Shown here one piece after another: positions 33,177 to 63,862 of a DNA stretch of 64,000 bases. A program made the translations under genes and the position numbers. Under the pieces are notes generated by a model. It worked only from the letters and a program-made list of their open reading frames with translations, did no database searches and was not told the DNA's origin. The DNA is from Streptococcus pneumoniae. GTDB taxonomy: Bacteria; Bacillota; Bacilli; Lactobacillales; Streptococcaceae. Within the stretch, counting starts at the first letter, position 1. Each line of letters starts with the position of its first letter. Where the stretch lies: the NCBI RefSeq assembly GCF_001457635.1, contig NZ_LN831051.1, forward strand, positions 1,488,001-1,552,000, written 5' to 3'.

Positions 33177-33207
33177 TAGGGTGATGAAAAATTCCAACGA
33201 GGCTGAG

Positions 33208-36200
33208 ATGAAATTACTTTATACTGATATTCGGACTTCTTTGACAGAAATTCTAACAAGAGAGGCAGAAGAGCTAGTTGCAGCTGGCAAGCGGGTCTTC
33301 TACATTGCCCCCAACTCTCTTTCTTTTGAAAAGGAACGCGCCGTGCTGGAATGCTTGTCCCAGCAGGCTTCTTTTTCGATTACCGTCACGCGCTTTGCTC
33401 AAATGGCTCGTTATCTGGTCTTGAATGATTTACCAGCTAAAACTACTCTTGATGATATCGGTCTTGGGTTGGCCTTTTACAAATGCCTTGCCGAACTCGA
33501 TCCCAAGGACTTGCGTGTTTATGGCGCTATTAAGCAGGATCCTCAATTGATCCAGCAGTTAATTGAGCTTTACCATGAGATGACCAAATCCCAGATGAGT
33601 TTTTTGGACTTGGAGAATTTAACAGATGAGGATAAGAGGGCGGATTTACTCTTGATTTTTGAGAAAGTAACAGCCTATCTTAATCAAGGTCAGTTAGCCC
33701 AGGGAAGTCAGTTGTCCCATTTGATTGAGGCTATTGAGAATGACAAGGTAAGTAGTGATTTTAATCAAATCACCTTGGTCATTGACGGCTTTACTCGTTT
33801 TTCTGCTGAGGAAGAGCGGGTTGTGGACTTACTTCACGGCAAAGGTGTTGAGATTGTTATCGGGGCTTATGCTAGTAAGAAAGCCTATACCAGTCCTTTT
33901 AGCGAGGGCAATCTCTACCAAGCCAGCGTAAAATTTCTCCATCATCTGGCTTCTAAATACCAAACGCCTGCTCAGGACTGTTCTCAAACTCATGAGAAGA
34001 TGGATAGTTTTGACAAGGCCTCTCGTTTGTTGGAGTCTTCTTATGACTTTTCAGAACTCGCTTTGGATGTCGATGAGAAAGACCGTGAAAATTTACAAAT
34101 CTGGTCTTGTTTGACGCAAAAGGAGGAGTTGGAGCTAGTAGCCCGTAGTATTCGTCAGAAATTACATGAGAACTCAGACCTGAGCTACAAGCATTTTCGT
34201 ATTCTCTTGGGGGATGTAGCTTCTTACCAGTTATCTCTCAAAACCATTTTTGACCAGTATCAGATTCCTTTTTATCTTGGTAGAAGCGAAGCCATGGCTC
34301 ATCATCCCTTGACTCAGTTTGTCGAGTCTATTTTAGCTTTAAAACGTTACCGTTTTCGTCAGGAGGATTTGATTAATCTTCTTAGAACTGATTTGTATAC
34401 TGACCTCAGTCAGTCTGATATTGATGCTTTTGAGCAATATATCCGCTATCTTGGTATCAATGGCTTGCCAGCCTTTCAGCAAATCTTCACCAAATCCCAC
34501 CATGGAAAATTTAATCTTGAGCGTTTGAATGTCCTCCGCCTGAGAATTTTAGCACCTCTTGAAACCCTCTTTGCCAGCCGAAAACAAAATGCTGAAAACC
34601 TCCTACAAAAATGGAGTGTCTTTCTAAAAGAAGGAGCTGTGACCAAGCAGTTACAAGATTTGACAACCACTTTGGAAGCTGTAGAACAGGAAAGACAAGC
34701 CGAAGTTTGGAAGGCTTTCTGCCATGTTTTAGAACAATTTGCGACTGTTTTTGCTGGTTCACAGGTTAGTCTGGAAGACTTCCTAGCCTTGCTCCATTCT
34801 GGAATGAGTTTGTCCCAATACCGTACCATTCCAGCAACAGTGGACACTGTTCTGGTGCAGAGTTACGATTTGATTGCACCATTGACTGCTGACTTTGTCT
34901 ATGCTATTGGACTAACTCAGGACAATTTACCAAAAATTTCTCAAAACACCAGTCTTCTGACAGATGAAGAAAGGCAAAACCTAAACCAAGCGACCGAAGA
35001 AGGCGTTCAATTACTGATTGCCAGCAGTGAAAATCTCAAGAAAAATCGCTACACTATGCTTTCCTTGGTCAATTCTGCTCGTAAGCAGTTGTTCTTGTCG
35101 GCTCCAAGCCTTTTTAACGAAAGTGAAAGTAAGGAATCTGCCTATCTTCAAGAGTTGATCCATTTTGGATTTAGGCGGAGAGAGAAGAGGATGAATCACA
35201 AAGGACTGTCTAAGGAGGATATGGGGTCCTATCACAGTCTTTTGTCTAGTCTGGTTGCCTATCACCAGCAGGGTGAGATGAGCGATACTGAGCAAGATTT
35301 GACTTTTGTCAAGGTTCTGTCGCGTGTCATAGGTAAAAAACTAGATCTGCAAGGTCTGGAAAATCCAGCTATCCCAACCAGTCCAAGCAGCAAGACCTTA
35401 GCCAAGGACACCTTGCAAGCTCTCTATCCTGCCAAACAGGAGTTTTACCTGTCTACGTCGGGTTTGACAGAGTTTTATCGCAATGAATACAGTTATTTCC
35501 TACGCTACGTTTTAGGCTTGCAGGAGGAATTACGTTTGCGTCCTGATGCCCGTAGTCACGGGAATTTCTTGCATCGTATCTTTGAACGCGCCTTACAGTT
35601 GCCTAATGAAGATTCCTTTGACCAACGTCTAGAACAAGCTATTCAAGAAACCAGTCAAGAACGCGAATTTGAAGCTATTTATCAAGAAAGTTTGGAAGCC
35701 CAGTTTACCAAGGAAGTTTTGCTTGATGTTGCACGGACGACTGGACATATTCTCCGACACAATCCAGCCATCGAAACCATCAAAGAAGAAGCAAATTTTG
35801 GTGGAAAAGACCAAGCCTTTATTCAATTAGACAATGGACGCAGTGTCTTTGTACGAGGCAAGGTGGACCGGATTGACCGTTTGAAAGCTAATGGAGCGAT
35901 AGGAGTAGTAGACTACAAATCCAGTCTGACTCAGTTCCAGTTTCCTCATTTCTTTAATGGGCTCAATTCTCAGTTACCAACCTATCTTGCTGCCCTAAAA
36001 AGAGAAGGGAAGCAGAACTTTTTCGGCGCCATGTACTTGGAAATGGCTGAACCTGTCCAATCTCTGATGGCGGTAAAAAGTCTGGCAGGAGCAGTGGTAG
36101 AAGCCAGCAAATCTATGAAATACCAAGGGCTCTTCTTGGAAAAAGAAAGCAGTTATTTAGGCGAATTTTATAACAAAAACAAGGCTAATCAACTGACAGA

Positions 36201-36483
36201 TGAGGAATTTCAGCTCCTACTGGACTACAATGCCTATCTTTACAAGAAAGCTGCTGAGAAGATTTTAGCAGGCCGGTTCGCCATCAATCCTTATACTGAA
36301 AATGGCAGAAGCATTGCCCCATACGTCCAGCAACATCAGGCTATTACAGGCTTTGAAGCCAATTACCATCTGGGCCAAGCCCGTTTCCTAGAAAAATTGG
36401 ACCTAGCTGATGGCAAGCGTCTGGTCGGAGAAAAACTCAAGCAAGCTTGGTTTGAAAAAATAAGAGAGGAGTTAAATCGATGA
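33208..36483 (+). CDS. rexB: RexB, subunit of the RexAB (AddAB-type) recombination nuclease
   Basis: This protein of 1091 residues is the AddB-like partner of RexA. RexAB degrades double-stranded DNA ends and loads recombination at Chi, and it also restricts foreign linear DNA. The N-terminus [20 protein letters not shown] matches the family. The C-terminal nuclease has VRGKVDRID (about 880) and GVVDYKSS (about 900) with the catalytic Asp and Lys. Unlike AddB, RexB lacks the four-Cys iron-sulphur cluster; I see no such set of cysteines. I chose ATG 33208 because of its GAGG site. It overlaps rexA by 4 bp. Confidence 0.94.
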
Positions 36484-39400
36484 AGCTTATTCCCTTTTTA
36501 AGTGAGGAGGAGATTCAAAAACTGCAAGAAGCAGAAGCAAATTCGAGCAAGGAACAGAAGAAAACTGCCGAACAAATCGAAGCTATCTACACTTCTGGTC
36601 AGAATATCCTGGTCTCAGCATCGGCTGGTTCTGGAAAGACCTTTGTCATGGCAGAGCGCATTCTGGACCAATTGGCGCGTGGTGTCGAAATTTCTCAACT
36701 CTTTATCTCAACCTTTACCGTCAAGGCTGCAACTGAACTTAAAGAACGTTTAGAGAAAAAAATCAGCAAGAAAATCCAAGAAACAGATGATGTCGATCTC
36801 AAACAACACTTGGGTCGCCAGTTGGCAGACCTACCCAACGCTGCCATCGGAACCATGGACTCTTTCACACAAAAATTCCTTGGCAAACATGGTTATCTGC
36901 TTGATATTGCACCTAATTTCCGTATTTTACAAAACCAAAGCGAGCAACTTCTTCTCGAAAACGAAGTCTTTCATGAGGTCTTTGAAGCGCATTACCAAGG
37001 TAAACAGAAAGAGAGCTTTAGTCATTTGCTGAAAAACTTTGCTGGGCGTGGCAAGGACGAACGGGGTCTGCGGCAGCAAGTCTATAAAATCTATGACTTC
37101 CTCCAATCCACCAGTAATCCTCAAAAGTGGCTGAGTGAATCTTTCCTCAAAGGCTTTGAGAAAGCTGATTTTACCAGTGAAAAAGAAAAACTGACTGAGC
37201 AAATCAAACAAGCCCTCTGGGATTTGGAAAGCTTTTTCCGTTACCATCTGGATAACGATGCCAAGGAGTTTGCAAAGGCTGCCTATTTAGAAAATGTTCA
37301 GTTAATTCTGGATGAAATTGGCTCCCTAAATCAGGAGTTCGATAGTCAGGCTTATCAGGCAGTACTTGCGCGTGTTGTCGCCATCTCTAAGGAGAAAAAC
37401 GGTCGTGCTCTGACTAATGCCAGCCGTAAGGCTGATTTGAAGCCCCTGGCTGATGCCTACAACGAAGAGAGAAAGACCCAGTTTACTAAACTAGGACAAT
37501 TATCAGACCAGATAGCGATTCTCGACTATCAAGAACGTTATCATGGAGACACTTGGAAACTAGCTAAAACCTTCCAATCTTTCATGAGCGATTTTGTAGA
37601 GGCTTATCGTCAGAGAAAACGACAGGAAAATGCCTTTGAATTCGCTGATATCAGCCATTACACCATTGAGATTTTAGAAAATTTCCCACAAGTTCGTGAG
37701 TCTTATCAGGAGCGCTTCCATGAAGTCATGGTCGATGAGTATCAGGATACCAACCATATTCAAGAACGGATGCTGGAATTGTTGTCTAATGGCCACAATC
37801 GCTTTATGGTGGGAGATATCAAGCAATCCATCTATCGTTTCCGTCAGGCAGACCCGCAGATTTTCAATGAGAAATTCCAACGCTATGCGCAAAATCCCCA
37901 AGAAGGCAAGCTCATTCTCCTCAAGGAAAATTTCCGTAGTAGTTCAGAAGTGCTGTCAGCAACCAATGATGTCTTTGAACGTCTCATGGACCAAGAGGTC
38001 GGCGAAATCAACTATGATAACAAGCACCAGCTTGTTTTTGCCAATACCAAACTGACTCCCAATCCAGACAACAAGGCAGAATTTCTCCTCTACGACAAGG
38101 ACGATACAGGTGAGGAAGAAGAGAGTCAAACAGAAACGAAACTAACAGGCGAAATGCGCTTAGTTATCAAGGAGATTCTGAAACTTCATCAAGAAAAAGG
38201 TGTTGCCTTTAAGGAAATTGCCCTTCTGACCTCCAGCCGCAGTCGTAATGACCAGATTCTCCTCGCCCTGTCTGAGTACGGGATTCCTGTCAAAACTGAC
38301 GGAGAGCAAAACAATTATCTCCAATCCCTAGAAGTGCAAGTCATGCTAGACACTCTTCGTGTCATTCACAATCCCCTGCAAGACTATGCCTTGGTTGCCC
38401 TTATGAAGTCTCCAATGTTTGGTTTTGATGAGGATGAGCTAGCACGTTTGTCCCTTCAGAAAGCAGAGGATAAAGTCCACGAAAATCTCTATGAGAAACT
38501 GGTCAATGCACAAAAAATGGCAAGTAGTCAAAAAGGCTTGATTCACACAGCTCTAGCTGAAAAACTAAAGCAATTCATGGATATCCTAGCTTCTTGGCGC
38601 TTGTATGCCAAAACCCACTCTCTCTATGACTTGATTTGGAAGATTTACAACGACCGTTTTTATTATGACTATGTTGGGGCTTTGCCGAATGGTCCTGCTA
38701 GGCAGGCCAATCTCTATGCCCTAGCACTGCGTGCTGATCAATTTGAAAAGAGCAATTTCAAAGGTTTGTCGCGTTTTATTCGTATGATTGACCAAGTCTT
38801 AGAAGCCCAGCACGATTTGGCAAGCGTGGCCGTCGCACCGCCAAAAGATGCAGTAGAGCTCATGACCATCCACAAGAGTAAAGGGCTGGAGTTTCCTTAC
38901 GTCTTTATCCTCAATATGGATCAAGATTTCAACAAGCAAGACTCTATGTCAGAAGTCATTCTCAGTCGTCAGAATGGTCTTGGTGTCAAATATATTGCCA
39001 AGATGGAGACAGGGGCAGTAGAAGACCACTATCCTAAAACCATCAAACTCTCCATTCCTAGTCTGACCTATAGGCAGAACGAAGAGGAATTACAGCTAGC
39101 AAGCTATTCTGAGCAGATGCGTTTGCTGTATGTTGCTATGACGCGGGCTGAGAAAAAGCTCTATCTTGTCGGCAAGGGTTCTCGTGAAAAGCTGGAAGTC
39201 AAGCAATACCCAGCAGCCAAAAATGGGAAACTAAATAGCAATACTAGACTGCAAGCACGGAATTTCCAAGATTGGCTTTGGGCTATCAGTAAAGTGTTTA
39301 CTAAGGACAAGCTCAACTTTAGTTATCGTTTTATTGGCGAAGATCAGTTGACCAGAGAAGCTATCGGAGAGTTGGAAACCAAGAGTCCTCTCCAAGATAG

Positions 39401-40130
39401 CTCCCAAGCAGACAATCGTCAGTCAGATACCATCAAAGAAGCTCTGGAAATGCTGAAGGAGGTGGAAGTTTATAATACTCTTCACCGCGCAGCTATTGAA
39501 CTTCCTAGTGTTCAAACCCCAAGTCAAATCAAGAAATTCTACGAACCAGTTATGGATATGGAAGGTGTCGAGATTGCTGGTCAAGGTCAGTCAGTAGGCA
39601 AGAAAATCAGCTTCGATTTGCCAGATTTTTCAACCAAAGAAAAGGTAACTGGAGCTGAGATTGGTAGTGCTACTCACGAACTCATGCAGAGAATTGACCT
39701 CAGCCAGCAACTAACCCTTGCTAGCCTAACAGAAACACTCAAACAAGTTCAAACTAGCCAAGCTGTCAGAGACAAGATCAATCTTGATAAAATTCTTGCT
39801 TTCTTTGACACAGTACTCGGTCAGGAAATTCTTGCTAATACCGACCATCTCTATCGCGAGCAACCTTTCTCCATGCTCAAACGAGACCAAAAGAGTCAGG
39901 AAGACTTTGTTGTCCGTGGTATCCTTGATGGCTATCTGCTTTACGAAAACAAAATTGTTCTGTTCGACTACAAGACAGACCGCTATGATGAACCAAGTCA
40001 ACTCGTAGACCGCTATCGTGGTCAGTTAGCTCTATACGAAGAGGCTTTATCACGAGCCTATTCGATTGAAAATATTGAAAAATACTTGATTTTACTCGGT
40101 AAAGACGAGGTTCAAGTTGTAAAAGTATAA
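36480..40130 (+). CDS. rexA: RexA, helicase-nuclease subunit
   Basis: The 1216-residue AddA-like protein is a UvrD-family helicase with a C-terminal nuclease. Walker A is [17 protein letters not shown] (about 45-60), motif [17 protein letters not shown] (about 417-431), a helicase motif [14 protein letters not shown] (about 796), motif [16 protein letters not shown] (about 880), and nuclease motifs [19 protein letters not shown] and LFDYKTDR (about 1145-1167). All active-site blocks are intact. Translation is coupled to rexB by ATGA. Confidence 0.96.
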
Positions 40131-40299: not shown

Positions 40300-41478
40300 A
40301 TGACACTTCCAGTTAGAAAATCCCTGCACGATGCAGTTTTACAGGCTTCGAAAGCGGATACTTGGGAACAAGCTACCAAGGAATGGAATGAAGTTTCCTT
40401 GATTTTTAACGGTATCGGCCGTAGCAATTGTGTCTGTGGAAATGCCATCAAATACGCTTATGAACTCTTTAACGGTGTCACAGGCCAACGCCTCTTTCCA
40501 ATTGGTAGCGACTGTGTTCGTCATTTTCATCGATTGTCCCTTGACCAGCAATTGGAAGAGGAAGAAAAACTGCTCAGAAAGGTTGAAAATCTAACCAGAA
40601 AAGCTCAGAAAAAGGAAAAAATCAAGGTCAATAAAAGTGACTTTGACGAGCGACTTCTAAAATGGCTCTGGGAAAAAGGTGTTTTCAAACCCAATCGTGG
40701 CAATCAATTTGCGCCTGAGAGAGACTACCAGCTTTTCCTAGAAGTCTTTCAGGGAGGAAGTTGGACCAAGGCGGAACCAAAGAAAAAGGCTCGGATGGAA
40801 GAAGTCCTTGAAAAGTGTATCAAACCCTTTTTACTTGGGAAATCGGATGACCAACTCTACCTTGTCAAGCTAGGCAAGGAGAAAATTGACTACGAACAAG
40901 AACTCCGTATCCAGGCAGAGAAAGAACGCAAGAAGAGGGATAAAATCGCCAAGCAATATGCAGACAATCTGGTTCTAGCCATGGGACCCGCAGAGCGTGC
41001 TTATCAAGATTACTTTGGCTTTACAGAGACCCTGACTCAAGAAGAACGCAAGTGGGAAAAAATTCTTTTTGGTAAAAATAGAGCAGAACGGGCTATCAAG
41101 GCCAAACAATACCAAAAAGAGCTGGAAAAAGACCAACGAATTGCCAGTCAGGATCCAATTGAAAGAAAACAGAAGCAGACTTGGCTCCTCAATTCCTATT
41201 TTCGTGAGCTTCCTGAAGAAAAAGCTCGATTTTCTAGGCTCTTATTAGAATATCGAAAAAGTGGTGAAGTACCCTTTTCAACTGAATACCTGTCCGATCA
41301 TCTCATCGACTTTTTCTATAAAATGAAAGCCTTTGAATTTGAAATCGCACCAGAACAAGTCCGAGATTTTCTAAAAAAAAGCCTGCAGGAAGACCATCGC
41401 TCATCAGCACAAGGAAGCTGGATAGAAGGAATTCTCCTCAACTGCCTCAAACCATTTTTAGAACGATTAGTGATATGA
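40300..41478 (+). CDS. Conserved hypothetical protein with an N-terminal Cys motif (possible zinc-binding)
   Basis: This 392-residue protein is not one I can name. Near residues 45-75 it has NCVCGNAIKYAYELFNG, then LFPIGSDCVRHF. The CxCG and GSDC pair resembles a small treble-clef-like zinc module found at the start of several phage and hypothetical proteins (family memory, not verified). The remainder is very rich in Lys, Glu and Arg with predicted helices (KKEKIKVNKSDF, EKERKKRDKIAKQYADN) and is soluble. The ribosome-binding site AAGGAG lies just after a BOX element. It is expected to be transcribed from within or across the BOX. It lies between rexA and the M26 genes, the usual pneumococcal gene order. 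Confidence 0.8.
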   Translation: MTLPVRKSLHDAVLQASKADTWEQATKEWNEVSLIFNGIGRSNCVCGNAIKYAYELFNGVTGQRLFPIGSDCVRHFHRLSLDQQLEEEEKLLRKVENLTRKAQKKEKIKVNKSDFDERLLKWLWEKGVFKPNRGNQFAPERDYQLFLEVFQGGSWTKAEPKKKARMEEVLEKCIKPFLLGKSDDQLYLVKLGKEKIDYEQELRIQAEKERKKRDKIAKQYADNLVLAMGPAERAYQDYFGFTETLTQEERKWEKILFGKNRAERAIKAKQYQKELEKDQRIASQDPIERKQKQTWLLNSYFRELPEEKARFSRLLLEYRKSGEVPFSTEYLSDHLIDFFYKMKAFEFEIAPEQVRDFLKKSLQEDHRSSAQGSWIEGILLNCLKPFLERLVI

Positions 41479-41686: not shown

Positions 41687-44600
41687 ATGGAAAAGTATTT
41701 TGGTGAAAAACAAGAGCGTTTTTCATTTAGAAAATTATCAGTAGGACTTGTATCTGCAACGATTTCAAGTTTATTTTTTATGTCTGTATTAGCTAGTTCA
41801 TCTGTGGATGCTCAAGAAACTGCGGGAGTTCACTATAAATATGTGGCAGATTCAGAGCTATCATCAGAAGAAAAGAAGCAGCTTGTCTATGATATTCCGA
41901 CATACGTGGAGAATGATGATGAAACTTATTATCTTGTTTATAAGTTAAATTCTCAAAATCAACTGGCGGAATTACCAAATACTGGAAGCAAGAATGAGAG
42001 GCAAGCCCTAGTTGCTGGTGCTAGCTTAGCTGCTCTGGGAATTTTAATTTTTGCTGTTTCCAAGAAAAAGGTTAAGAATAAAACGGTATTACATTTAGTA
42101 TTGGTTGCGGGAATGGGAAATGGTGTCTTAGTTTCAGTCCATGCTTTAGAAAATCATCTTTTGCTAAATTACAATACGGACTATGAATTGACCTCTGGAG
42201 AAAAATTACCTCTTCCTAAAGAGATTTCAGGTTACACTTATATTGGATATATCAAAGAGGGAAAAACGACTTCTGATTTTGAAGTAAGTAATCAAGAAAA
42301 ATCAGCAGCCACTCCTACAAAACAACAAAAGGTGGATTATAATGTTACACCAAATTTTGTAGACCATCCATCAACAGTACAAGCTATTCAGGAACAAACA
42401 CCTGTTTCTTCAACTAAGCCGACAGAAGTTCAAGTAGTTGAAAAACCTTTCTCTACTGAATTAATCAATCCAAGAAAAGAAGAGAAACAATCTTCAGATT
42501 CTCAAGAACAATTAGCCGAACATAAGAATCTAGAAACGAAGAAAGAGGAGAAGATTTCTCCAAAGGAAAAGACTGGGGTAAATACATTAAATCCACAGGA
42601 TGAAGTGCTATCAGGTCAGTTGAACAAACCGGAACTCTTATATCGTGACGAAACTATAGAAACAAAAATAGATTTTCAAGAAGAAATTCAAGAAAATCCT
42701 GATTTAGCAGAAGGAACTGTAAGAGTAAAACAAGAAGGTGCATTAGGTAAGAAAGTTGAAATCGTCAGAATATTTTCTGTAAACAATGAAGAAGTTTCAC
42801 GAGAAATTATTTCAACTTCAACGACTGCGCCTGTTTCAAGAATAGTCGAAAAAGGTACTAAAAAAGCTCAAGTTATAAAGGAACAAGCTGAGACTGGTGC
42901 AGAACATAAGGAAGTACAGTCTGGAGCTATTGTTGAACCCGCAATTCAGCCTGAACTACCAGCAGCTGTATTAACCGACAAAGGTGAGTCAGCAGTCCAA
43001 CCAGAGTTGCCAGAAGCTGTAGTAAGTGATAAAGGCGTACCAGAAGTTCAACCAGCGTTACCAGAGGCAGTCATGACTGACAAGGGTGATCCAGAGCAGG
43101 TAGAACCGCTACCAGAATATACAGGAGTACAAGCTGGAGCTATTGTTGAACCTGAAAAAGTTGAACCGGAATATGCTGGAGTACAAGCTGGCGCTATTGT
43201 TGAACCAGAGCAGGTAGCACCACTACCAGAATACACAGGGGTGCAAGCCGGAGCGATAGTCGAGCCAGAGAAAGTAGAAGCACCGAAGGAATACACAGGA
43301 GTGCAGGCTGGAGCGATAGTCGAACCAGAGAAGGTAGAAGCACCGAAGGAATACACAGGAGTGCAAGCCGGAGCAATAGTAGAACCAGAAAAAGTAGAAC
43401 CATCAAAAGAATACACAGGGGTGCAGGCTGGCGCTATTGTTGAACCAGAGCAGATAGCACCACTACCAGAATACACAGGGGTGCAAGCCGGAGCGATAGT
43501 CGAGCCAGAGAAAGTAGAAGCACTGAAAGAATATACTGGTAAAATCGAACAACCTAGTGCAGAAGATACTAAACCAAATAATGAAAATACTAATACACCA
43601 GAAGAAATGAGTATTCAGAAAAAATCTAGTGCATTAATTAATATGAACTTTATTACAGATTCGTCGAAGGTTACTGGAGTAGGATCAGCTACTTTTATTG
43701 CACCAAATGTACTTTTAACAGTAGCACATAATTTCATTAATAATTCTACTGATAATACTACTGGCGAATTTAGAGGTGATAAATCTAAAAACGTATATGA
43801 GTGGGTGACTCCTGATGGACAAAAAGGAACATTTACTGCTAACAATATTCATTTTTATAATAAAAAAGATTATCCAAAAGGATTTATCTATGATTTAGCA
43901 GTGATTAAGCTACCTGAAACAACTGGCAGAGAACATGTAGAATTAGTTAAAAATTATTCGAAAGTAAATCTTAATGACAAACTAAATGTTCATGGATATC
44001 CAGCTGGGAAATATACGCACTTAAAAGATGCTACGGTAGAAATGGAACAAGAATATGCGAATAACACCTACGGTGTTCAATATCAAGGTGGAAATCCTGG
44101 TATGAGTGGTGGAGGAATATTTAATGCTAATGGTGAAGTTATTGGTGTGCATCAAAATGGAGCACAAAATCGCTCAGGCGGATTGATTTTATCTCCTACA
44201 CAATTAGCTTGGATTAAGAGTATTATAGCAGGTAATGAAATTCCACCAGTATACGATGAACTTTATCGTCATAAAGATGAGAAAAAAGATGACGCTAAAG
44301 ATGAAAAAGAAGTTATTAAGAAATTAGAACTTAGAAATATATCTTCTGTAGAACTATATTCAAAAGATGGTAATAAGTATCGACATGTAACTTCACTTGC
44401 TTCTTTACCAAGTAATGCAGAAAATTACTTTATGAAAGTTAAATCAGAGAACTTTAAAGATGTGATGCTACCAGTTACAAGCATTACTAATGATACTAAA
44501 GATAATAGAGATGTTTATAAGATAGTAGCAAGTGCAAATAGTCTGATACAACATGAAAATAATAATGTACTAGAAAATTATACATACTATTTACCAAAAA

Positions 44601-47600
44601 CTCAGCAAAGTGAAACTGGGGTATATACATCATTTAAAAATTTAGTAGATGCAATGAATAGCAATCCTAATGGCACATTCCGTTTAGGAGCAACTATGGA
44701 TGCTCGTGAAGTTGAACTTCCAGATGGTCAAGAAAGTTATGTGAATAATGTATTCCATGGAATATTAGTAGGAACAAATAATGAGAAATATTATGCTATT
44801 TATAATTTGAAAAAACCATTATTTGGGGAATTAAATGGTGCTACAGTAGAAAAACTTTCACTAAAAGATGTTAATATTTCCGCAAAGGACGATACTGCAA
44901 CACTTGCGAAAGAAGCAAATAACAATACTCATATTGATAACGTTCATGCTGATGGAGCGATAGCTGGGGAACGTAGCATAGGAGGATTAGTATCACAAGT
45001 TAATAATTCTACTATTTCTAACAGTAGCTATACAGGTAGAATAACTAATACATATAAAACAGTTGCTAGTTATCAAATCGGAGGTTTAGTAGGCAAACTT
45101 TCTGGTCCGAGGGGATTAATAGATAAGTCGTTCGCATCAATCGATTTATCTTCAAATGCAACACAAGGAGACCAGTCTATTGGTGGAATAGTTGGTGCAG
45201 TAGAAAATAGTGCGCTTATTAGTAATAGTTATGCTGAAGGAAATCTAAATAATGTTCAACGTTTTGCAAACGTTGGTGGAGTAGTTGGTAATCTTTGGGA
45301 TCCGGTTGGAGGATTAGAAAAATCCGGTCGACTTTCTAATGTACTAAGCGATGTTAATGTAACGAATGGTAATGCTATTGCAGGTTATAATTTTAATGGT
45401 ATAAAAGCAAATGGCACATACAGTAATAAAAATAATAAGGTTGTGAACGTAGTACAAGAAGATGATGAAATCTTAACTAAGGATTCTACTGTTCAAAGAG
45501 GAGAAGTATTAGAAGATGCACAAATAAAAGAGAAAAAAGCTACTTTTGTATCTAAAAATACTATTAAAACAGAAGATTTTAATTTCTCTTCTAGATATGT
45601 AACTGACTATAAAAATCTTGAGAATGCTGATTCATCAAAAGAAAAAGTATATAAAAATATTGAAAAACTATTACCGTTTTATAATAGAGAAACAATTGTT
45701 AAGTACGGAAATTTAGTAGAGACAAGTAGTAATCTTTATAATAAAGAATTATTGTCAGTAGTCCCTATGAAAGATAAAGAAGTAATTAGTGATATTAACA
45801 AAAATAAATCAAGTATAAATAAACTATTACTATATTACGCGGATAATACATCAGAGACACTTAATGTAAATTATCAAACTGATTTTTCAAATGTAGCAGA
45901 GTATAGAATAGGCGGTACAAACTTAATTTATACACCGAATACATTACTTCGCAATTATCAAAATATTTTAGATGAAGTATTACCAGCATTAAATAGTGTA
46001 GAATATAAATCAGAGGCAATTAGAAAAGTATTAGATGTTTCTAAGGATGTTAGTTTAACGGAGTTATATTTAGAAGAACAATTCAATACCACAAAAACTA
46101 ATTTGAAAGATAGTTTGACAAAACTTCTTACTGCAGATGCTGCAATAGCTGAAAATAACAATAAGGTAATAGATAATTATGTAATCGAGAAAATTAAAAA
46201 TAATAAAGAAGCTTTACTTCTAGGATTAACATACTTAGAGCGTTGGTACGACTTCAAATATCGTGATACAAAAGCGAAAGATTTAGTCATGTACCACTTG
46301 GATTTCTTCGGTAAATCAAATAGTTCAGCGTTAGATAATGTTATCGAACTAGGTAAATCGGGATATAATAACTTACTAGCAAAAAATAATGTTATAACTT
46401 ATAATGTTTTATTAGCGAAAAATTATAAGACTAATAATTTATTTGATGCATTAGAGAAATATAGAAAAGCATTTGTACCAGATAAAACAAATAATGAGTG
46501 GTTTAAAGAACAAACTAAAGCATATATTGTAGAAGAAAAATCTACTATTAAAGAGGTAAGTGATAAGCAATCAATAGCTGGTAGTCCATATTCAATTGGA
46601 GTATATGATAGATTAACTAGCCCATCTTGGAAATATCCAAGTATGGTGTTGCCGCTATTAACATTACCTGAAAAATCGGTGTTTATTATAGCCAACATTT
46701 CGACTATAGGTTTCGGTGCTTATGATAGATATAGAAGTAAAGAACATCCAGCAGGAACTGATTTAAATGACTATGTTGAGAAAAAAGCTAAAGAAGCGGC
46801 TGTTAGATTTAGAGATCACTATGATTATTGGTATAGAATACTAGATGATAAAAATAAAGAAAAATTATATAGAAGTGTTCTAGTCTATGATGCATTTAGA
46901 TTTGGTACAGATGAAAAAGAAGATAAAGATACATATCAAGCAACTTTTGAAACTAATCATCCAGCTATAAAACATTTCTTCGGTCCAGCGGGAAATAATG
47001 TTGTTCATAATTCTAATGGAGCATATGCTACAGGGGATGCATTCTATTATATGGCATATCGCATGCTTGATAAAGATGGTGCGGTAACTTATACACACGA
47101 AATGACACATAACTCAGATAGAGAAATTTATCTTGGAGGCTATGGAAGACGAAATGGACTTGGACCAGAGTTTTATGCTAAAGGACTGCTACAAGCTCCT
47201 GATCATCCTAATGATCCAACAGTCACTATTAATTCCATATTAAAATATGATCAATCAGAAGAATCAACAAGGCTTCAAGTAGCAGATCCAACTCAACGAT
47301 TTGGAAGTGTTGATGATCTAAATAAGTATATGCATAATATGTTTGATGTAATATACATGCTTGAAATACTAGAAGGTAAAGCTGTAGCTAAATTAGATAC
47401 AAATCAAAAATATGATTTATTAAGAAAAATAGAAAATGAATATAAACCTGATCCTGATGGAAATTCTGTTTATGCAACGAATGTTGTACGTAGATTAAAA
47501 CCAGAAGAACTTACTAAATTAACTACATTTAACAGTTTGATAGAACATGATATTATAACAAGAAGAGGTTATGTAGATGAAGCAACTTATAAGCGGAATG

Positions 47601-48166
47601 GCTACTATACAATTAATCTATTCTCACCAATTTATTCAGCATTGAGCAGTAAAATAGGAACACCAGGAGATTTAATGGGACGACGTATTGCATTTGAGTT
47701 ATTGGCAGCCAAGGGGTACAAAGACGGTATGGTTCCATATATTTCTAATCAGTATGAAAAAGAAGCGAAAGCTCAAGGAAAAGTTATTACATCATATGGT
47801 AAACAAATAGGTTTAGTTACTGATGAAATTGTTCTTTCAAAAGTATTTAATAACCAGTATAATTCTTGGATAGATTTCAAGAAAGATATGTATAAAGAAA
47901 GAGAAGATAAATTTGGAAAGTTAAATAAAGTTAGTTTTATCGATCCAAACGGTTCTTGGGCTCGACAACAGAAAGTGACTATTGATAATATTAATAGACT
48001 TGAAAAAATGATTGAAGATGCAGTAAAATTTGATGCTGAGGATGAAGTTGCCAAATTATATCCTGAGACAAATAGTAGAGTTCTTAAACTGAAAAAAGCA
48101 ATCTTTAAAGCTTATCTTGACCAAACCGGTGATTTTAGAAGTTCAATTTTTGAGAATAAAAAATAG
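41687..48166 (+). CDS. Surface M26 (IgA1-protease-like) zinc metalloprotease with an additional trypsin-like serine protease domain
   Basis: The 2159-residue protein starts with a YSIRK-like signal (FSFRKLSVGLVSA, about 13-25), an N-terminal sorting motif LPNTG (96-100) and two membrane segments (about 106-125, 133-154), the unusual arrangement of streptococcal M26 proteases. A G5-like domain (about 318-400) and seven 20-residue repeats of the form EYTGVQAGAIVEPEKVEAPK (about 478-620) follow. Then comes a chymotrypsin-fold domain (about 650-860) with H681 (TVAHNF), D736 (IYDLAVIKL) and S807 (NPGMSGGG). GLUG-type repeats (about 1085-1200) precede the metalloprotease with HEMTH (1804-1808) and E1828 as zinc ligands, plus YLGGYGRRNGLGPE. 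From about 43560 the DNA is much more AT-rich with AGA, ATA and TTA codons. Confidence 0.9.
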   Translation: MEKYFGEKQERFSFRKLSVGLVSATISSLFFMSVLASSSVDAQETAGVHYKYVADSELSSEEKKQLVYDIPTYVENDDETYYLVYKLNSQNQLAELPNTGSKNERQALVAGASLAALGILIFAVSKKKVKNKTVLHLVLVAGMGNGVLVSVHALENHLLLNYNTDYELTSGEKLPLPKEISGYTYIGYIKEGKTTSDFEVSNQEKSAATPTKQQKVDYNVTPNFVDHPSTVQAIQEQTPVSSTKPTEVQVVEKPFSTELINPRKEEKQSSDSQEQLAEHKNLETKKEEKISPKEKTGVNTLNPQDEVLSGQLNKPELLYRDETIETKIDFQEEIQENPDLAEGTVRVKQEGALGKKVEIVRIFSVNNEEVSREIISTSTTAPVSRIVEKGTKKAQVIKEQAETGAEHKEVQSGAIVEPAIQPELPAAVLTDKGESAVQPELPEAVVSDKGVPEVQPALPEAVMTDKGDPEQVEPLPEYTGVQAGAIVEPEKVEPEYAGVQAGAIVEPEQVAPLPEYTGVQAGAIVEPEKVEAPKEYTGVQAGAIVEPEKVEAPKEYTGVQAGAIVEPEKVEPSKEYTGVQAGAIVEPEQIAPLPEYTGVQAGAIVEPEKVEALKEYTGKIEQPSAEDTKPNNENTNTPEEMSIQKKSSALINMNFITDSSKVTGVGSATFIAPNVLLTVAHNFINNSTDNTTGEFRGDKSKNVYEWVTPDGQKGTFTANNIHFYNKKDYPKGFIYDLAVIKLPETTGREHVELVKNYSKVNLNDKLNVHGYPAGKYTHLKDATVEMEQEYANNTYGVQYQGGNPGMSGGGIFNANGEVIGVHQNGAQNRSGGLILSPTQLAWIKSIIAGNEIPPVYDELYRHKDEKKDDAKDEKEVIKKLELRNISSVELYSKDGNKYRHVTSLASLPSNAENYFMKVKSENFKDVMLPVTSITNDTKDNRDVYKIVASANSLIQHENNNVLENYTYYLPKTQQSETGVYTSFKNLVDAMNSNPNGTFRLGATMDAREVELPDGQESYVNNVFHGILVGTNNEKYYAIYNLKKPLFGELNGATVEKLSLKDVNISAKDDTATLAKEANNNTHIDNVHADGAIAGERSIGGLVSQVNNSTISNSSYTGRITNTYKTVASYQIGGLVGKLSGPRGLIDKSFASIDLSSNATQGDQSIGGIVGAVENSALISNSYAEGNLNNVQRFANVGGVVGNLWDPVGGLEKSGRLSNVLSDVNVTNGNAIAGYNFNGIKANGTYSNKNNKVVNVVQEDDEILTKDSTVQRGEVLEDAQIKEKKATFVSKNTIKTEDFNFSSRYVTDYKNLENADSSKEKVYKNIEKLLPFYNRETIVKYGNLVETSSNLYNKELLSVVPMKDKEVISDINKNKSSINKLLLYYADNTSETLNVNYQTDFSNVAEYRIGGTNLIYTPNTLLRNYQNILDEVLPALNSVEYKSEAIRKVLDVSKDVSLTELYLEEQFNTTKTNLKDSLTKLLTADAAIAENNNKVIDNYVIEKIKNNKEALLLGLTYLERWYDFKYRDTKAKDLVMYHLDFFGKSNSSALDNVIELGKSGYNNLLAKNNVITYNVLLAKNYKTNNLFDALEKYRKAFVPDKTNNEWFKEQTKAYIVEEKSTIKEVSDKQSIAGSPYSIGVYDRLTSPSWKYPSMVLPLLTLPEKSVFIIANISTIGFGAYDRYRSKEHPAGTDLNDYVEKKAKEAAVRFRDHYDYWYRILDDKNKEKLYRSVLVYDAFRFGTDEKEDKDTYQATFETNHPAIKHFFGPAGNNVVHNSNGAYATGDAFYYMAYRMLDKDGAVTYTHEMTHNSDREIYLGGYGRRNGLGPEFYAKGLLQAPDHPNDPTVTINSILKYDQSEESTRLQVADPTQRFGSVDDLNKYMHNMFDVIYMLEILEGKAVAKLDTNQKYDLLRKIENEYKPDPDGNSVYATNVVRRLKPEELTKLTTFNSLIEHDIITRRGYVDEATYKRNGYYTINLFSPIYSALSSKIGTPGDLMGRRIAFELLAAKGYKDGMVPYISNQYEKEAKAQGKVITSYGKQIGLVTDEIVLSKVFNNQYNSWIDFKKDMYKEREDKFGKLNKVSFIDPNGSWARQQKVTIDNINRLEKMIEDAVKFDAEDEVAKLYPETNSRVLKLKKAIFKAYLDQTGDFRSSIFENKK
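43120..43545 (+). repeat. In-frame 60-bp repeats in the M26 gene
   Basis: About seven copies of a 60-bp unit encode the EYTGVQAGAIVEPE-type 20-residue repeats, with variants ending KVEAPK, QVAPLP, KVEPSK or QIAPLP. The unit number should vary between strains. It is preceded by shorter repeats of QPELPEAVVTDKGEPE type, which also occur in the next gene. Confidence 0.85.
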
Positions 48167-48209: not shown

Positions 48210-51200
48210 TTGTCATTATTAAAAAAAGATAAATTTTCCATTCGGAAAATAAAGGGTATTGTTGGTTCGGTATTCTTGGGGAGTCTTTTATTTGCACCGT
48301 CAGTTGTTGGTGCATCGACTTATCATTACTTAGATTATAGTAGTTTGACACAAACTGAACGTGATCAACTCAAACAAGGTAGACCTGATGAATCCAAAGA
48401 GTCATATGCTTTGGATTATGAAAAAGACGCACTACCAAACACAGGAAGTTCTCAATCTATTATGACTGCATTGGGTTTGTTAGCTATCGGGAGTCTTATT
48501 GTGATTATCACAAAAGATAATAGAAATAAAAAAATAGCTACATTTTTGATTGTAGGGGCGACAGGTTTAGTTACACTATCAACTGCTTCAGCACTTAATT
48601 TGAATGCTAACATCCATGAGTCTGGACGTGATGGTGTGTTGCAAATTTCTGGTTACAGATATGTTGGTTACTTGGAGCTTGATGATAAAACTGTTTCGTC
48701 GGTTTCTCCAGCATCAACTGTTTCGCCAGTTGAGCAACCCAAAGTTGTAACAGAGAAAGGCGAACCGGAAGTACAACCAGCTTTACCCGAAGCTGTTGTA
48801 ACCGACAAAGGGGAATCTGAGATTCAAGCAGAATTGCCAGTAGCCGTAGTCTCAGAAAAGGTAGAATCAGCAGTTCAACCATCCTTACCAGAAGCAATAG
48901 TCACTGAAAAGGGGGAACCAGAAGTTCAACCAGTGTTACCCGAAGCTGTTGTAACCGACAAAGGCGAACCGGAAGTTCATGAGAAGCCTGACTATACGCA
49001 ACCAATAGGTGCAAACCTTGTTGAGCCTGAAGTTCATGAGAAACTAGCATACACTGAACCAGTAGGGACAACAGGAGTAGATGAAAATGGAAACTTGATT
49101 GAACCACCTGTTAACGACATCCCAGAATATACTGAGCCAGTAGGTACAACAGGAGTGGATGAAAATGGAAACTTGATTGAGCCACCTGTTAGCGACATTC
49201 CAGAGTATACTGAACCAATATCTACAGTTTCAGAAGTTGCATCAGAAAGAGAAGAGTTGCCTTCTTTACATACCGATATTCGGACAGAGACTATTCCTAA
49301 AACCACTATAGAAGAATCTGATCCTAGCAAATTTATAGGCGATGATTCTGTTAGACAAGTTGGTGAGGATGGCGAACGTCAAATTGTTACTAGCTATGAA
49401 GAGTTACATGGCAAAAAAATCAGTGACCCAGTTGAAACAGTAACTATTTTGAAAGAAATGAAGCCTAAAATTCTTGTAAAAGGTACCAAAGAAAAACCTA
49501 AAGAAAAAACGGCTCCTGTTTTGACCTTAGATAGAACAAATACAAATGTATTAAACCGATCCGCAACTCTTTCTTATCATTTAGTTAATACAGATGGAGT
49601 CACAATCAATAAAATTACTGCGACAATTAAAGATGGAAATGAAATTGTCAAAACAGTAGATTTGACTTCAGAGCAATTAGATAAGCAGGTAGAAGATTTA
49701 AAATTCTACAAGGACTATAAGATAGAGACCACTATGACCTATGACCGTGGCAAGGGAGAAGAAACTGCAACATTAGAAGAGAAACCACTTCGCTTGGATT
49801 TGAAAAAAGTTGAAATTAAAAATATCGCATCTACTAATTTAGTGAAGGTAAATGACGATGGTACTGAAACACCTAGTGATTTTATGACTGAAAAACCTTC
49901 AGATGAAGATGTGAAGAAAATGTACTTAAAAATTACTAGTCGTGATAATAAAGTAACACGTTTAGCAGTTGATAAAATTGAAGAAGTGACTGAAGAAGGT
50001 AAGAAACTTTATAAAATCACTGCCGAAGCTCAAGATTTGATTCAACATACAGACCCAACGAAGGTTCGTAACAAGTATGTTCATTATATTGAAAAACCAG
50101 TTCCAAAAGTTGATGACGTTTATTATAACTTTAAAGAGTTAGTAGATGCCATGAATGCTGATAAAAATGGTACATTTAAAATCGGAGCAGATTTGAATGC
50201 AACGAATGTACCAACACCTAACAAACAATATGTTCCAGGTACGTTTAAGGGACATCTATCAAGTGTTGATGGTAAACAATATACAATTCATAACATTGCC
50301 CGTCCCTTATTTGACCGTGTTGAAAATGGTTCTGTGAAAAATATTAATTTAGGTAATGTGGATATCAATATGCCTTGGGCTGACGGAATAGCACCTGTTG
50401 CCAATATGGTGAAAAATGCAACTGTTGAAGATGTTAAGGTAACTGGTAATGTAGTTGCTAATAACAATATTGCGGGTATCGTCAATAAAATCGATAGTGG
50501 TGGTCAGTTGACAAATGTAGCCTTCATCGGTAATCTTACAGGTGTTGGTGATAAAGGTCAATATATGGCTGGCATTGCCGGTGAGATTTGGAGAGGTAAT
50601 CTTGCAAAAGCATATGTCGAGGCTGATATTGTTGCTAACAGAGCCCGTATAGGTGGTTTAGTTGCTAAAACAGATAATGGTAACGACTCTATGGGAATTG
50701 GTAAATACGGTTCAATTCGTAAATCAGTCACCAAAGGAACCATTAAGACTAAAGTTTTGTTTGAAACAGGTGGATTTATCAATAGCAATCTTCCTTTTGG
50801 TAAACTTGAAGATAATATTTCAATGATGAGAGTTGAAAATGGTGAAGAGTTCTTTGGTTCTTCCGATTTGGACTACGATGGTGGTTATTTCACAAATGGC
50901 TGGTTAGAGCGTAACTTTGTTGTCAAAGGTGTCAGTTCAGGTAAGCATTCATACAAACGTTCTCGTGACAAAATTAAAGAAATTAGTCAAGATGAAGCTA
51001 ATAAGAGAATTGCAAATTTTGGACTTACTGCTGATAAATACGAAATCAACGAACCTGTGGTCAATCGCTTAAATCGTTTAACCAGAAGAGAAGATGAATA
51101 TAAGTCAACTCAAGACTACAAATCCGAACGTGATTTAGCTTATCGTAATATTGAGAAACTTCAACCATTTTATAATAAAGAATGGATTGTCAACCAAGGT

Positions 51201-53627
51201 AACAAACTTGCAGAAGATTCAAACTTAGCTAAGAAAGAAGTCCTTTCTGTTACGGGGATGAAGGATGGTCAATTCGTGACCGATTTATCAGATATTGATA
51301 AGATTATGGTTCACTATGCTGATGGTACTAAGGAAGAAATGGATGTTACTAAGAATACTGATTCTAAAGTCCAACAAGTGCGTGAATATAGTGTATCTGG
51401 TCTTGGTGATGTTGTTTATACACCGAATATGGTTGTTAAAAATCGTGATAAATTGATTGCTGATGTTAAATCTCAATTATCAAGTGTGGAATTGATTTCA
51501 CAAGAAGTAAGAGATTTAATGAGTAGACGTGATAAACCTGCAGAGAATACGGATGAACGTAAGAATGGTTATATTAAAGATCTATACTTAGAAGAAAGCT
51601 TTGCCGAAGTGAAGCAAAATCTAGATAAGTTAGTCAAATCCTTGGTCGAAAATGAAGACCATCAATTGAATGGTGATGAAGCTGCGATAAAATCACTTCT
51701 CAAGAAAGTGGAAACCAATAAAGCTAAAATCATGATGGCTCTGACTTATCTCAATCGTTACTATGATATCAAATACGGTGACATAAGTATAAAAAACATC
51801 ATGATGTTCAAACCTGATTTTTATGGTAAAACACCAAGTGTTATTGACAGACTCATCAACATCGGTTCAAGTGAAAAGAACTTGAAAGGGGATCGGACTC
51901 AGGATGCTTACCGTGAAATCATCGCAGGTAATACTGGTAAAAGTAATTTGCGTAACTTCTTAGAATACAACATGCGTCTGTTTACAGAGGATAAAGACAT
52001 CAATGATTGGTTTATCCACTCAGCTAAGAATGTTTATGTTTCAGAACCTAAGACAACAAATACAGAGTTGAAAGATAAACGTCATCGTGTGTTCGATGGT
52101 TTAGATAACGGTGTTCATGGTCGTATGATTTTACCACTTCTAACGCTTAAAGATGCCCATATGTTCTTAATTTCAACATATAACACGATGGCGTACAGTT
52201 CATTTGAGAAATATGGAAAACATACAGAAGAAGCTCGTAATGAGTTCAAAACTAAGATTGATGAAGTTGCACATGCTCAACAAACTTATTTAGATTTCTG
52301 GTCCAGATTAGCTCTGCCTAATGTTCGTGATAGACTTCTTAAGAGTCAAAATATGGTACCGACACCAGTTTGGGATAACCAGACCTACAATGGTTCTCCT
52401 GTAGGTCGTCGAGGATTTGACAGTAAAGGTAACCCTATAGCTCCAATTCGTGAATTATATGGTCCAACATGGCGACACCATGATAGAGACTGGCGTATGG
52501 GCGCTATGGCATCAATATTCCCTAATCCAAATAATGATGACAAGGTCTTGTTTATGGTGACGGATATGATTAGCCCATTTGGTATTTCAGCCTTTACTCA
52601 CGAAACAACACACGTAAACGATAGAATGCTTTACTTCGGTGGTCATAAGCATCGTCAAGGTACAGACGTTGAAGCCTATGCTCAAGGTATGTTGCAAACA
52701 CCTGACAGCTCAACGACTAATGGTGAATACGGCGCACTTGGAATTAACATGGCTTACCATCGTCCAAATGATGGTAACCAATGGTACAACCCAGATCCTG
52801 ACAAATTAAAGACACGTGATGACATTGACCGCTACATGAGAAACTACAATGAAGCTATGATGTTGCTTGATCATGTAGAAGCTGATGCTGTACTTCCTAA
52901 AATTAAAGGAGACAATAGTAAGTGGTTCAAGAAGATTGACAAAGAAATGCGCTCTAAGATTCAGTATAATGATCTTTTAGGTCCAAACCAATGGGATAGT
53001 ATCCGTGATTTGAAAGATGAAGAAAAGGTAATGACTTTATCTAGCGTCAATGATTTAGTGGATAATAACTTCATGACAAAACATGGAAATCCAGGTAATG
53101 GACGTTATAGACCAGAAGATTTTACACCAAACTCAGCTTACGTAAATGTCAATATGATGGCAGGAATTTACGGTGGGAATACGAGTCAAGGTGCTCCTGG
53201 TTCATTATCATTTAAGCACAATGCTTTCCGTATGTGGGGCTATTATGGTTATGAAAATGGCTTTATTAGTTATGTATCAAATAAATACAAAGCAGAAGCA
53301 GATAAAAACAACCACGGTTTACTAAGCGATAAGCTAATAATTAATAAAGTATCGAAAGGAAACTTTAATACTCTTGAAGAGTGGAAGAGACATTGGTACG
53401 GGGAAGTTCTTGCTAAAGCTAAGAAAGGTTTTGAGGCTATCGATATTGATGGCGTCCATATCAGTAACTATGATGAGTTAAGGCCTTTATTTGATAAAGC
53501 AGTTGAAGAAGATTTGAAGAAACCAGATGACTTCTCTCACACTGTTGCTCTTAAATCTAAGGTCTTCAAAGCCCTTCTTAAAAACACAGACGGTTTCTTT
53601 AATAAACTGTTTAAAGAAGACATTTAA
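48210..53627 (+). CDS. Surface M26 zinc metalloprotease (ZmpB/ZmpD-like)
   Basis: The 1805-residue protein starts at TTG 48210 behind GGTGGAGGA. It has a signal-like N-terminus ([28 protein letters not shown]), LPNTG at 75-79 and two membrane segments. Repeats of the forms [16 protein letters not shown] and [20 protein letters not shown] follow, then a G5 domain (about 345-430). The metalloprotease carries HETTH (1464-1468) with E1488 as third ligand. There is no serine protease domain. Codon use is normal for the host (CGT, GGT), unlike the 3' part of the preceding gene. It lies 43 bp after that gene and is probably co-transcribed. The substrate cannot be assigned. Confidence 0.9.
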   Translation: [1805 protein letters not shown]

Positions 53628-57575: not shown

Positions 57576-57774
57576 AAAGTACATTCTTTGAAAAGTGTAC
57601 TTTATTTTTGTTTTGTACATTATTCTGGAGTGGTATTTTGTGTGTTTTATAGTACATAATATCCTCAAATCTAAGAAATTGATTTGTACATTTTTTACTC
57701 AAGTAACAGCAGAAGAAGTGGTGGTTCAATTGTACATTTTTAAAAATAAAGTAGCTATTTCATTGATAGCTACT
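57576..57774. other. Intergenic hairpins at the island border
   Basis: AAAGTACA (57576-57583) / TGTACTTT (57596-57603) with a T run is a terminator on the plus strand. GTAGCTAT (57751-57758) / ATAGCTAC (57766-57773) followed on the minus strand by a T-rich tail can terminate the gene that ends at 57773. GTACATT-type words recur three times (57580, 57615, 57731). No gene is seen in 57477-57772. Confidence 0.55.
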
Positions 57775-58669
57775 ATTCTTGTGTTTGAACTTCTTTATTA
57801 AGGTCATTTAATAAATTGTTAATTTTTGATTCAACTGATATTCTTGTTACTTTTAAGATATTTTTTGGTTTTAGAGAAGGATTATTAGGGTTGTTTACTT
57901 CAAAACAATTTTCGTAATTTTTCAATTCAGGGATCGCTTCGTACCATTTTGCAAAGGAACGAGTAAGAATTATTATCACTTTATCATTTTTGTCATCTAT
58001 TCTTTTTTTAATTTTTCTGAAGAGGAATTTTTGTGTAGGAAGGTAATCTTTTATCTTTCTGTTACTATTTGGGGAAGTACCTTTAGCTAATTTGTCATAC
58101 ATATCATTATAAGATATAGAATGGTAGGGAAAGAACTCAGCAAGTGCAATATTTTTAGTTATCTTTTTTAAAGATTTAATAATTTTTTTGTTATATTTTT
58201 CTTTATCCTTTTCATTATCTTTTTCATCATGGTCTTCAACCCAGCATTTCATTTTATTTCCCCAATATCCTAGATCACTTTCATTTGCTAATTCAAATGC
58301 GTGGAAGAATGGCTGTTCCATTTCTAGATTTTCTTTTATAGTTTGTTCGTATTTAATGCCGTCTTTATTAGTGCTGTTTTTATAAGCATCATAATATTCT
58401 GTGCTATAGCCTGGGTTTAAACTTAAGATTATAATTTTTGCATTATCTATATCACCAACAAAATGTTGAGGATAAACATTTAGTCGGAGTTTATATTTTT
58501 CTTTGGCTGCTTTCTTTGTTTTTTCATTAGCATCATCATCTACTTTATCTACTGGGGGATATTTTTTTGAATTTAATAGCTTTTTAATATATTTCAGGTC
58601 CGCAGTAGCAACGATTATCTTCTCACCATTATATATTTCCGAAGTAGTATCTATCCAAGGATTTTCCAT
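57773..58669 (-). CDS. Accessory protein with an LSLNPG motif (weakly uracil-DNA-glycosylase-like)
   Basis: This 298-residue protein is not one I can name. The segment AKIIILSLNPGYSTEYYD (NPG at 85-87) looks like the active-site strand of uracil-DNA-glycosylase-like proteins. A later strand KVIIILTRSFAKWYEAIPEL (near residue 240) is where such folds carry a second motif, but the HPS signature is absent, so the match is weak. Two highly charged stretches (DDDANEKTKKAAKEKYK; DHDEKDNEKDKEKYNKK) flank the core. The start is ATG 58669, or GTG 58672, behind GAGG. The gene is AT-rich and sits among restriction-modification relics. It appears to have replaced the 5' end of the neighbouring nuclease gene. 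The function is unknown. Confidence 0.7.
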   Translation of the reverse strand: MENPWIDTTSEIYNGEKIIVATADLKYIKKLLNSKKYPPVDKVDDDANEKTKKAAKEKYKLRLNVYPQHFVGDIDNAKIIILSLNPGYSTEYYDAYKNSTNKDGIKYEQTIKENLEMEQPFFHAFELANESDLGYWGNKMKCWVEDHDEKDNEKDKEKYNKKIIKSLKKITKNIALAEFFPYHSISYNDMYDKLAKGTSPNSNRKIKDYLPTQKFLFRKIKKRIDDKNDKVIIILTRSFAKWYEAIPELKNYENCFEVNNPNNPSLKPKNILKVTRISVESKINNLLNDLNKEVQTQE

Positions 58670-58708
58670 CACAATAACCTCTAATTCAAATTAATAACAC
58701 TATTTTAT

Positions 58709-62791: not shown

Positions 62792-63862
62792 ATGAAACGT
62801 GAGATTTTACTGGAACGAATCGACAAACTAAAACAACTCATGCCCTGGTATGTTCTGGAATACTACCAATCTAAACTGGCTGTGCCCTACAGTTTTACAA
62901 CCCTGTACGAATACCTTAAGGAATATGACCGATTTTTCAGCTGGGTTTTGGAGTCTGGTATTTCAAACGCTGATAAAATATCCGATATTCCTTTATCAGT
63001 TTTGGAAAATATGTCTAAGAAAGACATGGAATCCTTTATCCTTTATCTACGTGAACGTCCCTTGCTGAATGCTAATACAACAAAACAAGGTGTTTCACAG
63101 ACAACTATCAATCGAACCTTATCAGCACTTTCTAGTCTTTACAAGTATCTAACCGAGGAGGTTGAAAATGATCAGGGGGAACCTTATTTCTATCGTAATG
63201 TAATGAAAAAAGTTTCAACCAAGAAAAAGAAAGAAACCCTTGCTGCCAGAGCTGAAAATATCAAGCAAAAACTCTTTCTAGGTGATGAAACAGCAGGTTT
63301 TCTAACTTATATCGATCAAGAGCACCCACAACAGCTTTCAAATCGAGCTCTCTCATCATTCAACAAAAATAAAGAACGAGATTTAGCCATTATTGCCCTT
63401 CTCTTGGCATCTGGTGTTCGCTTATCTGAAGCTGTTAATCTAGATCTAAGAGATCTCAATCTAAAAATGATGGTTATTGATGTTACTCGAAAAGGTGGCA
63501 AACGTGACTCAGTCAATGTCGCTGCTTTTGCTAAACCTTATTTAGAGAATTATCTGGCCATTCGGAATCAACGCTATAAAACGGAAAAAACAGATACAGC
63601 CCTTTTTTTAACTCTCTACAGAGGTGTTCCTAATCGTATCGATGCTTCTAGCGTTGAGAAAATGGTTGCTAAATACTCAGAGGATTTTAAAGTGCGTGTA
63701 ACACCCCATAAACTGCGCCATACGCTAGCAACTAGGCTCTATGATGCGACTAAATCACAAGTTTTAGTCAGTCACCAACTAGGACATGCCAGCACACAAG
63801 TCACTGACCTCTATACCCATATTGTTAATGATGAACAAAAGAATGCTCTAGATAGTTTATAA
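62792..63862 (+). CDS. xerS: Tyrosine recombinase XerS
   Basis: The 356-residue recombinase resolves chromosome dimers at dif in streptococci, replacing the XerC/XerD pair. The N-terminal DNA-binding domain covers about 1-150. Catalytic blocks are [14 protein letters not shown] (Arg), [15 protein letters not shown] (HxxR), [16 protein letters not shown] (His and Tyr nucleophile). The start is ATG 62792 behind GGAG. The dif-like site lies 52 bp upstream. A TGCTATACT promoter (62754-62762) lies between. Confidence 0.96.

Follow-up and report, generated by a model that had tools for sequence, protein, structure and literature searches.

The closest described relative of the protein considered here is the IgA1 protease of Gemella haemolysans (7UVK, 7UVL), an M26 metalloprotease whose chain includes a trypsin-like domain, GhTrp, with a crystal structure of its own (9ECT; PMC9637739, PMC11970125); Tran 2025 (PMC11970125) treats the function of such domains in M26 proteases as still unsettled. 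The pneumococcal IgA1 protease of structures 7JGJ and 6XJA is also a ZmpA of the M26 family, but it has been described without a trypsin-like domain. In its accessible portion, PMC12211801 records the same kind of fusion in S. mitis and S. oralis: an additional S1B domain on the ZmpA and SpGH101 of commensals, and Cbp33, which combines trypsin-like, G5 and choline-binding parts; the domains are noted there singly, and fusions to GH29 or sialidase go unmentioned in that portion. Here we analyse a window of 64,000 nucleotides of Streptococcus pneumoniae (contig NZ_LN831051.1, positions 1,488,001 to 1,552,000 of the forward strand). It holds a zmpA/iga-type gene whose 2159-residue product joins an S1B-type trypsin-like module to an M26 protease (Table 1), and we find this module on several different surface proteins of mitis-group streptococci and of Gemella.

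The whole 2159-residue protein is matched by the NCBIfam model for ZmpA (NF046017; 4046.8 bits versus a cut-off of 3000) and stays below the cut-offs for ZmpC (1289.7 bits), ZmpB (580.9) and ZmpD (529.6). We assign it to the ZmpA-type IgA1 metalloproteases, within the M26 subfamily that carries a trypsin-like domain; its predicted activity is cleavage of human IgA1 in the hinge. The initial annotation had placed a serine triad and an M26 zinc site in one chain, and a single open frame indeed carries H681/D736/S807, HEMTH at 1804–1808 and E1828, with residue numbers that agree with a start at the ATG at 41687. Pfam matches Trypsin_2 (residues 666–821, 39.7 bits, cut-off 27.6), M26_N and M26_C, so that the domain identities stand above chance, and it also finds a Glug match. 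The interval first proposed, 43600–48166, holds from the serine domain onward but misses the start of the gene. Because the trypsin-like domain and its triad sit between G5 and M26_N, the layout is that of the Gemella enzyme. The initial annotation had rightly mentioned trypsin-like domains in M26 proteins of Gemella. The module matches 9ECT (E 8e-110), its triad aligns with the published H724/D779/S850 of the Gemella protein at a constant offset of 43, it is 75% identical to GhTrp in the Foldseek alignment, and we saw no sequence difference in the catalytic residues, although the genus differs. Furthermore, the M26 region scores 2125 bits against the Gemella enzyme and 1635 bits against the pneumococcal structures. 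The fusion that had been flagged as unusual is thus present, but its weight was misjudged: the pairing of a trypsin-like domain with M26 belongs to an already described subfamily with a solved serine-domain structure, of which this protein is a further member, and the observation, real as it is, is ordinary as stated.

The module itself is found much more widely. We searched 284 Streptococcus genomes at a threshold of 1e-6 and obtained a match in 83. M26 proteins account for only five places in four of these genomes, with modules 77–100% identical; the remaining matches, 33–42% identical, lie in non-M26 proteins. Family scans of representatives identified the partners as GH101 endo-alpha-N-acetylgalactosaminidase and GH29 alpha-L-fucosidase, and revealed a sialidase protein and a choline-binding protein with two modules each; in double-module LPXTG proteins Pfam shows no further enzyme. 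Other module loci were sorted into the same classes by local comparison, and weak Streptococcus matches (about 1e-6 to 1e-12; among them G028, G087, G136, G159, G221 and G277), which may be other trypsin-like proteases, were left out. These GH101, GH29, sialidase, choline-binding and double-module proteins rule out a module peculiar to IgA1 proteases, and because it is shared by several partner types, it cannot have a function confined to IgA1 either. Without any variation in the triad, the family extends over no fewer than five recognised types of enzyme or anchor. Sharing of the module by ZmpA, GH101 and choline-binding proteins is partly in print, and fusions to GH29 and sialidase were not found in our searches of open-licence papers, which is weak evidence of absence.

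As to its taxonomic range, the module profile matched 28 of 398 genomes of a class-wide sample at 1e-10; matches better than 1e-60 were confined to Streptococcus, and the next genus reached 4e-16. Among named genomes, 77 of 78 module loci, all gathered with a single pattern that spans the S1 His, belong to Streptococcus and one to Gemella haemolysans. Modules 99–100% identical occur in S. pneumoniae (P0014, P0021, P0051) and S. mitis (P0053), among the 120 of 1402 proteins listed. Several individual proteins may be recorded beside these counts. A surface protein of Streptococcus sp. DD10, 2595 residues long, consists of module, GH29 fucosidase and sialidase (L113:7479-15266, L052:1419-9206). 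In Gemella haemolysans DNF01167, two modules are followed by G5-like repeats (L070:6537-9356), which parallels the double-module proteins of streptococci. The choline-binding protein has a weak G5 match next to its two modules (L041:5759-9382, the same stretch as L060), and the iga gene of that genome is without the module.

The active site was compared in 96 distinct modules, which represent GH101 (35), GH29 (17), GH29 plus sialidase (1), M26 (4), double-module LPXTG (15 + 14), sialidase (3 + 3) and choline-binding (2 + 2) proteins; near-identical cores were merged, and partnerless fragments (L007–L010, L138) and the short modules at L055 and L133, which are one protein, were left out. The module has a chymotrypsin fold with a catalytic triad, and across all seven architectures the triad His, Asp and Ser, the oxyanion Gly and His822 are invariant (96/96), in an alignment in which the commonest residue holds 53% of rows in the median column and median pairwise identity is 36%. 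Since His822 belongs to the gathering pattern, we counted it separately in the 33 modules gathered by similarity search alone, and it is kept in every one. We take His822 to be the S1 His position of glutamyl endopeptidases (213 in chymotrypsin numbering), a feature that the module presumably has in common with V8-type enzymes. Position 194, M806 here, is Met, Ala, Leu or Phe and never Asp in the 96 modules, which excludes classical activation of the chymotrypsinogen type through Ile16-Asp194 but leaves room for other modes of activation.

The module is also under purifying selection, as judged from the ratio of non-synonymous to synonymous substitution rates (dN/dS) in up to 60 random pairs per class, with dS of 0.05–1.5 kept. 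In M26 proteins the ratio is 0.189 for the module, much the same as the 0.183 for M26_C. A rival view is that the module has lost catalysis and acts as a binding or spacer domain, which the authors of PMC11970125 leave possible. Two Gemella constructs have been published without measurable activity, and the S1 pocket is occluded both in the crystal and in the authors' model (PMC11970125); by the offset of 43, the blocking loop corresponds to residues 825–829 here and borders the invariant H822, Q823 and G825. On the other hand, the triad and the oxyanion Gly are all kept in 96 of 96 modules, more than binding alone would require, and an unvaried triad in a shared family argues against decay. 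Decayed modules may escape similarity searches, and one GH101 protein (L055/L133) keeps just the last part of its module in frame. We consider a catalytically dead module rather unlikely.

The position of the cell-wall anchor distinguishes M26 proteins from the rest. In 62 of 72 full-length distinct module proteins, LPxTG is C-terminal and the module lies toward the opposite end, whereas in all four full-length M26 proteins LPxTG is N-terminal of the module; the pattern used found no LPxTG at either end in six. The module precedes the partner in all 60 proteins with an enzyme partner. The choline-binding protein was scored 0/1 for 'module first', a recording artefact, because Pfam puts its modules before the choline-binding repeats. 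It follows that M26 proteins are the only ones in which a cut beside the module would release the enzyme from the wall, and that such release cannot be the module's general role. Whatever the module does in every layout must instead take place at the exposed end, next to an enzyme acting on host glycoproteins.

This geometry makes self-release and cleavage of host substrates separable by a simple prediction. Were the module to cleave the Glu-rich linker that precedes it in the same chain (45 Glu in the 264 residues 394–657), either module and M26 together or M26 alone would leave the wall anchor. The initial annotation had suggested release of the metalloprotease, which is possible in the M26 layout; as a role for the module it misfits the 62 C-terminally anchored proteins, in which the same cut would free the module and not the enzyme. 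Activation of the domain through N-terminal excision, proposed by Tran et al. (PMC11970125), comes close to self-release. However, a module-less iga gene (L196) keeps the same N-terminal anchor region (91% identical) and M26_C (96%), with a different linker sequence, and nuclear magnetic resonance titration of the Gemella protein revealed no contact between module and M26 (PMC9637739). We rate self-release as less probable still than loss of catalysis. Cleavage of host proteins, the other role suggested in the initial annotation and a predicted activity, suits the set of partners better.

A tree divides the modules into two supported sets, one with GH29 modules and the first modules of double proteins (38 rows), the other with M26, GH101 and second modules (58 rows). 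Within the tree, M26 modules form one group (100/99) and GH101 modules a separate one (100/99); the number of joining events is uncertain because the root is a midpoint root and the program warned of long branches. Presence of the module varies among iga genes. We compared the 18 closest places, those with at least 69% identity to the M26 N-terminal query, and read 11 of the 13 module-less ones directly; in one of these (L200), a linker of the KEYTGKIEQ type joins the start of M26_N directly.

We hypothesize that the module is an endoprotease, latent but able to catalyse, whose targets are the polypeptide chains of host glycoproteins on which the partner enzyme acts. With its V8/exfoliative-toxin (S1B) fold, it is joined in mitis-group streptococci and Gemella to different surface enzymes that act on host glycoproteins, namely IgA1 protease, endo-alpha-GalNAcase, fucosidase and sialidase, and it also makes up double-module wall proteins without another recognised enzyme; from the exposed end, it would cleave host polypeptide next to the partner. 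Anchor geometry, the constancy of the triad and the existence of double-module proteins favour this reading, to which we give an even chance, and the published negative assays are why we put it no higher. In those assays the Gemella domain (about 75% identical) cleaved neither chromogenic peptides nor a peptide library from E. coli, and was likewise inactive on Boc-Glu-OPhenyl and IgA1 (PMC9637739, PMC11970125); in the crystal, loop 2 closes off the S1 pocket (PMC11970125). Several of our own results also count against a host-directed endoprotease. Only five of the 18 closest iga places have the module and 13 do not, so that it is dispensable there. The module evolves faster than its partner in GH101 proteins (dN/dS 0.053 versus 0.019) and in GH29 proteins (0.098 versus 0.027). 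Beyond rank 2, V8-like and HtrA-like folds score alike (Foldseek, VIA) and only 1p3c stands apart, and this tie leaves specificity unfixed by the fold.

A more specific form of the host-glycoprotein hypothesis is offered tentatively, as doubtful but worth stating: the modules may constitute a separate protease family that fronts deglycosylating and IgA1-cutting enzymes, such that a single molecule would both remove O-glycans and cleave the polypeptide thereby exposed. The module would be latent on plain peptides and need either a glycoprotein substrate or N-terminal trimming, a need that would explain the negative assays. Alternatively, the module could process other proteins of the bacterial surface. 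Every architecture found is a wall-located protein, and one genome (G200) encodes four module proteins with five modules between them, two in the sialidase and one each in the M26, GH29 and GH101 proteins; yet the recognised partners act on host glycans or IgA1, and nothing in the data points to a bacterial target, which leaves this the least probable of the four explanations, behind self-release.

Comparable enzymes outside the family differ in architecture. Staphylococcal V8 protease, the exfoliative toxins and the glutamyl endopeptidase of Bacillus intermedius (1P3C) have the fold and triad of the module at about 16–20% identity in structural alignments, but they are separate secreted enzymes and not fused. 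CbpG of S. pneumoniae, a choline-binding trypsin-like protein with reported activity on fibronectin and casein (PMC8592123), likewise displays a trypsin-like domain at the surface; unlike the module, it is a single small protein. That review counts four extracellular serine proteases of the pneumococcus and does not include the module, with which strains carrying this iga allele would have five. We also considered a tie to the S. oralis protease MdpS, which acts on MUC5B, and set it aside, as the accessible part of PMC10830703 offers no sequence link.

Table 1. Coordinates of the zmpA/iga-type gene, its parts and neighbouring genes within the 64,000-nucleotide window.
Feature	Coordinates	Strand	Evidence
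zmpA/iga-type gene, M26 IgA1 protease with trypsin-like module	41687..48166	+	single open reading frame, 2159 residues, ATG at 41687
YSIRK-type signal peptide, residues 7-32	41705..41782	+	PF04650, 35.9 bits
N-terminal LPXTG anchor region (LPNTG), residues 89-131	41951..42079	+	PF00746, 29.2 bits; TIGR01167, 21.1 bits, cut-off 15.9
G5 domain, residues 320-392	42644..42862	+	PF07501, 62.9 bits
Glu-rich tandem repeat linker, units of about 20 residues, EYTGVQAGAIVEPEKVEAPK type, from G5 to module	43087..43533	+	Tandem Repeats Finder, period 60/120, score 551
Trypsin-like (S1B-type) module, residues 640-862	43604..44272	+	
Catalytic His681, in TVAHNF	43727..43729	+	His in 96/96 distinct modules
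Catalytic Asp736, in IYDLAVIKL	43892..43894	+	Asp in 96/96 distinct modules
Catalytic Ser807, in NPGMSGGG (oxyanion Gly805)	44105..44107	+	Ser and Gly in 96/96 distinct modules
His822	44150..44152	+	His in 96/96 distinct modules
Peptidase_M26_N, residues 855-1090	44249..44956	+	PF05342, 264.6 bits
Peptidase_M26_C, residues 1402-2155	45890..48151	+	PF07580, 911.1 bits
Zinc site HEMTH, residues 1804-1808	47096..47110	+	sequence
Glu1828, downstream zinc ligand, 24 residues past the first His of HEMTH	47168..47170	+	sequence
ZmpD-type M26 protease without module	48210..53627	+	NF046024 (ZmpD), 3681.9 bits, cut-off 3000; no trypsin family match
rexB/addB and rexA/addA	33181..40130	+	TIGR02774, 1810 bits; TIGR02785, 1459 bits

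The ZmpD-type gene directly downstream of zmpA has a TTG start and contains SIALI-17-like repeats and repeats of 51/78 bases. Between rexA and zmpA, an open reading frame of 392 residues (40300-41478) has no Pfam or NCBIfam match at 1e-3. The same holds in Pfam, at 1e-3, for a 299-residue frame on the reverse strand (57773-58672), in which a 12-base tandem repeat occupies 58191-58227, and a tyrosine-recombinase gene of the phage integrase family (62792-63862) lies near the end of the window.

Elsewhere in the same genome (2,110,968 bases), the GH101 protein (L206, 1767 residues, GH101 from residue 125) was considered as a second carrier of the module and rejected, since neither module query matches it at E 1e-4. 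A trypsin-like piece of 156 residues at about 106.7–107.2 kb (L210:2687-3157, reverse strand) is matched by the module profile over its first half only (E 5e-11); from its position near GH101, it may be a shortened CbpG. A remnant of M26_C with four internal stops is found at a further place (L006, G000:C1:589914-590255).

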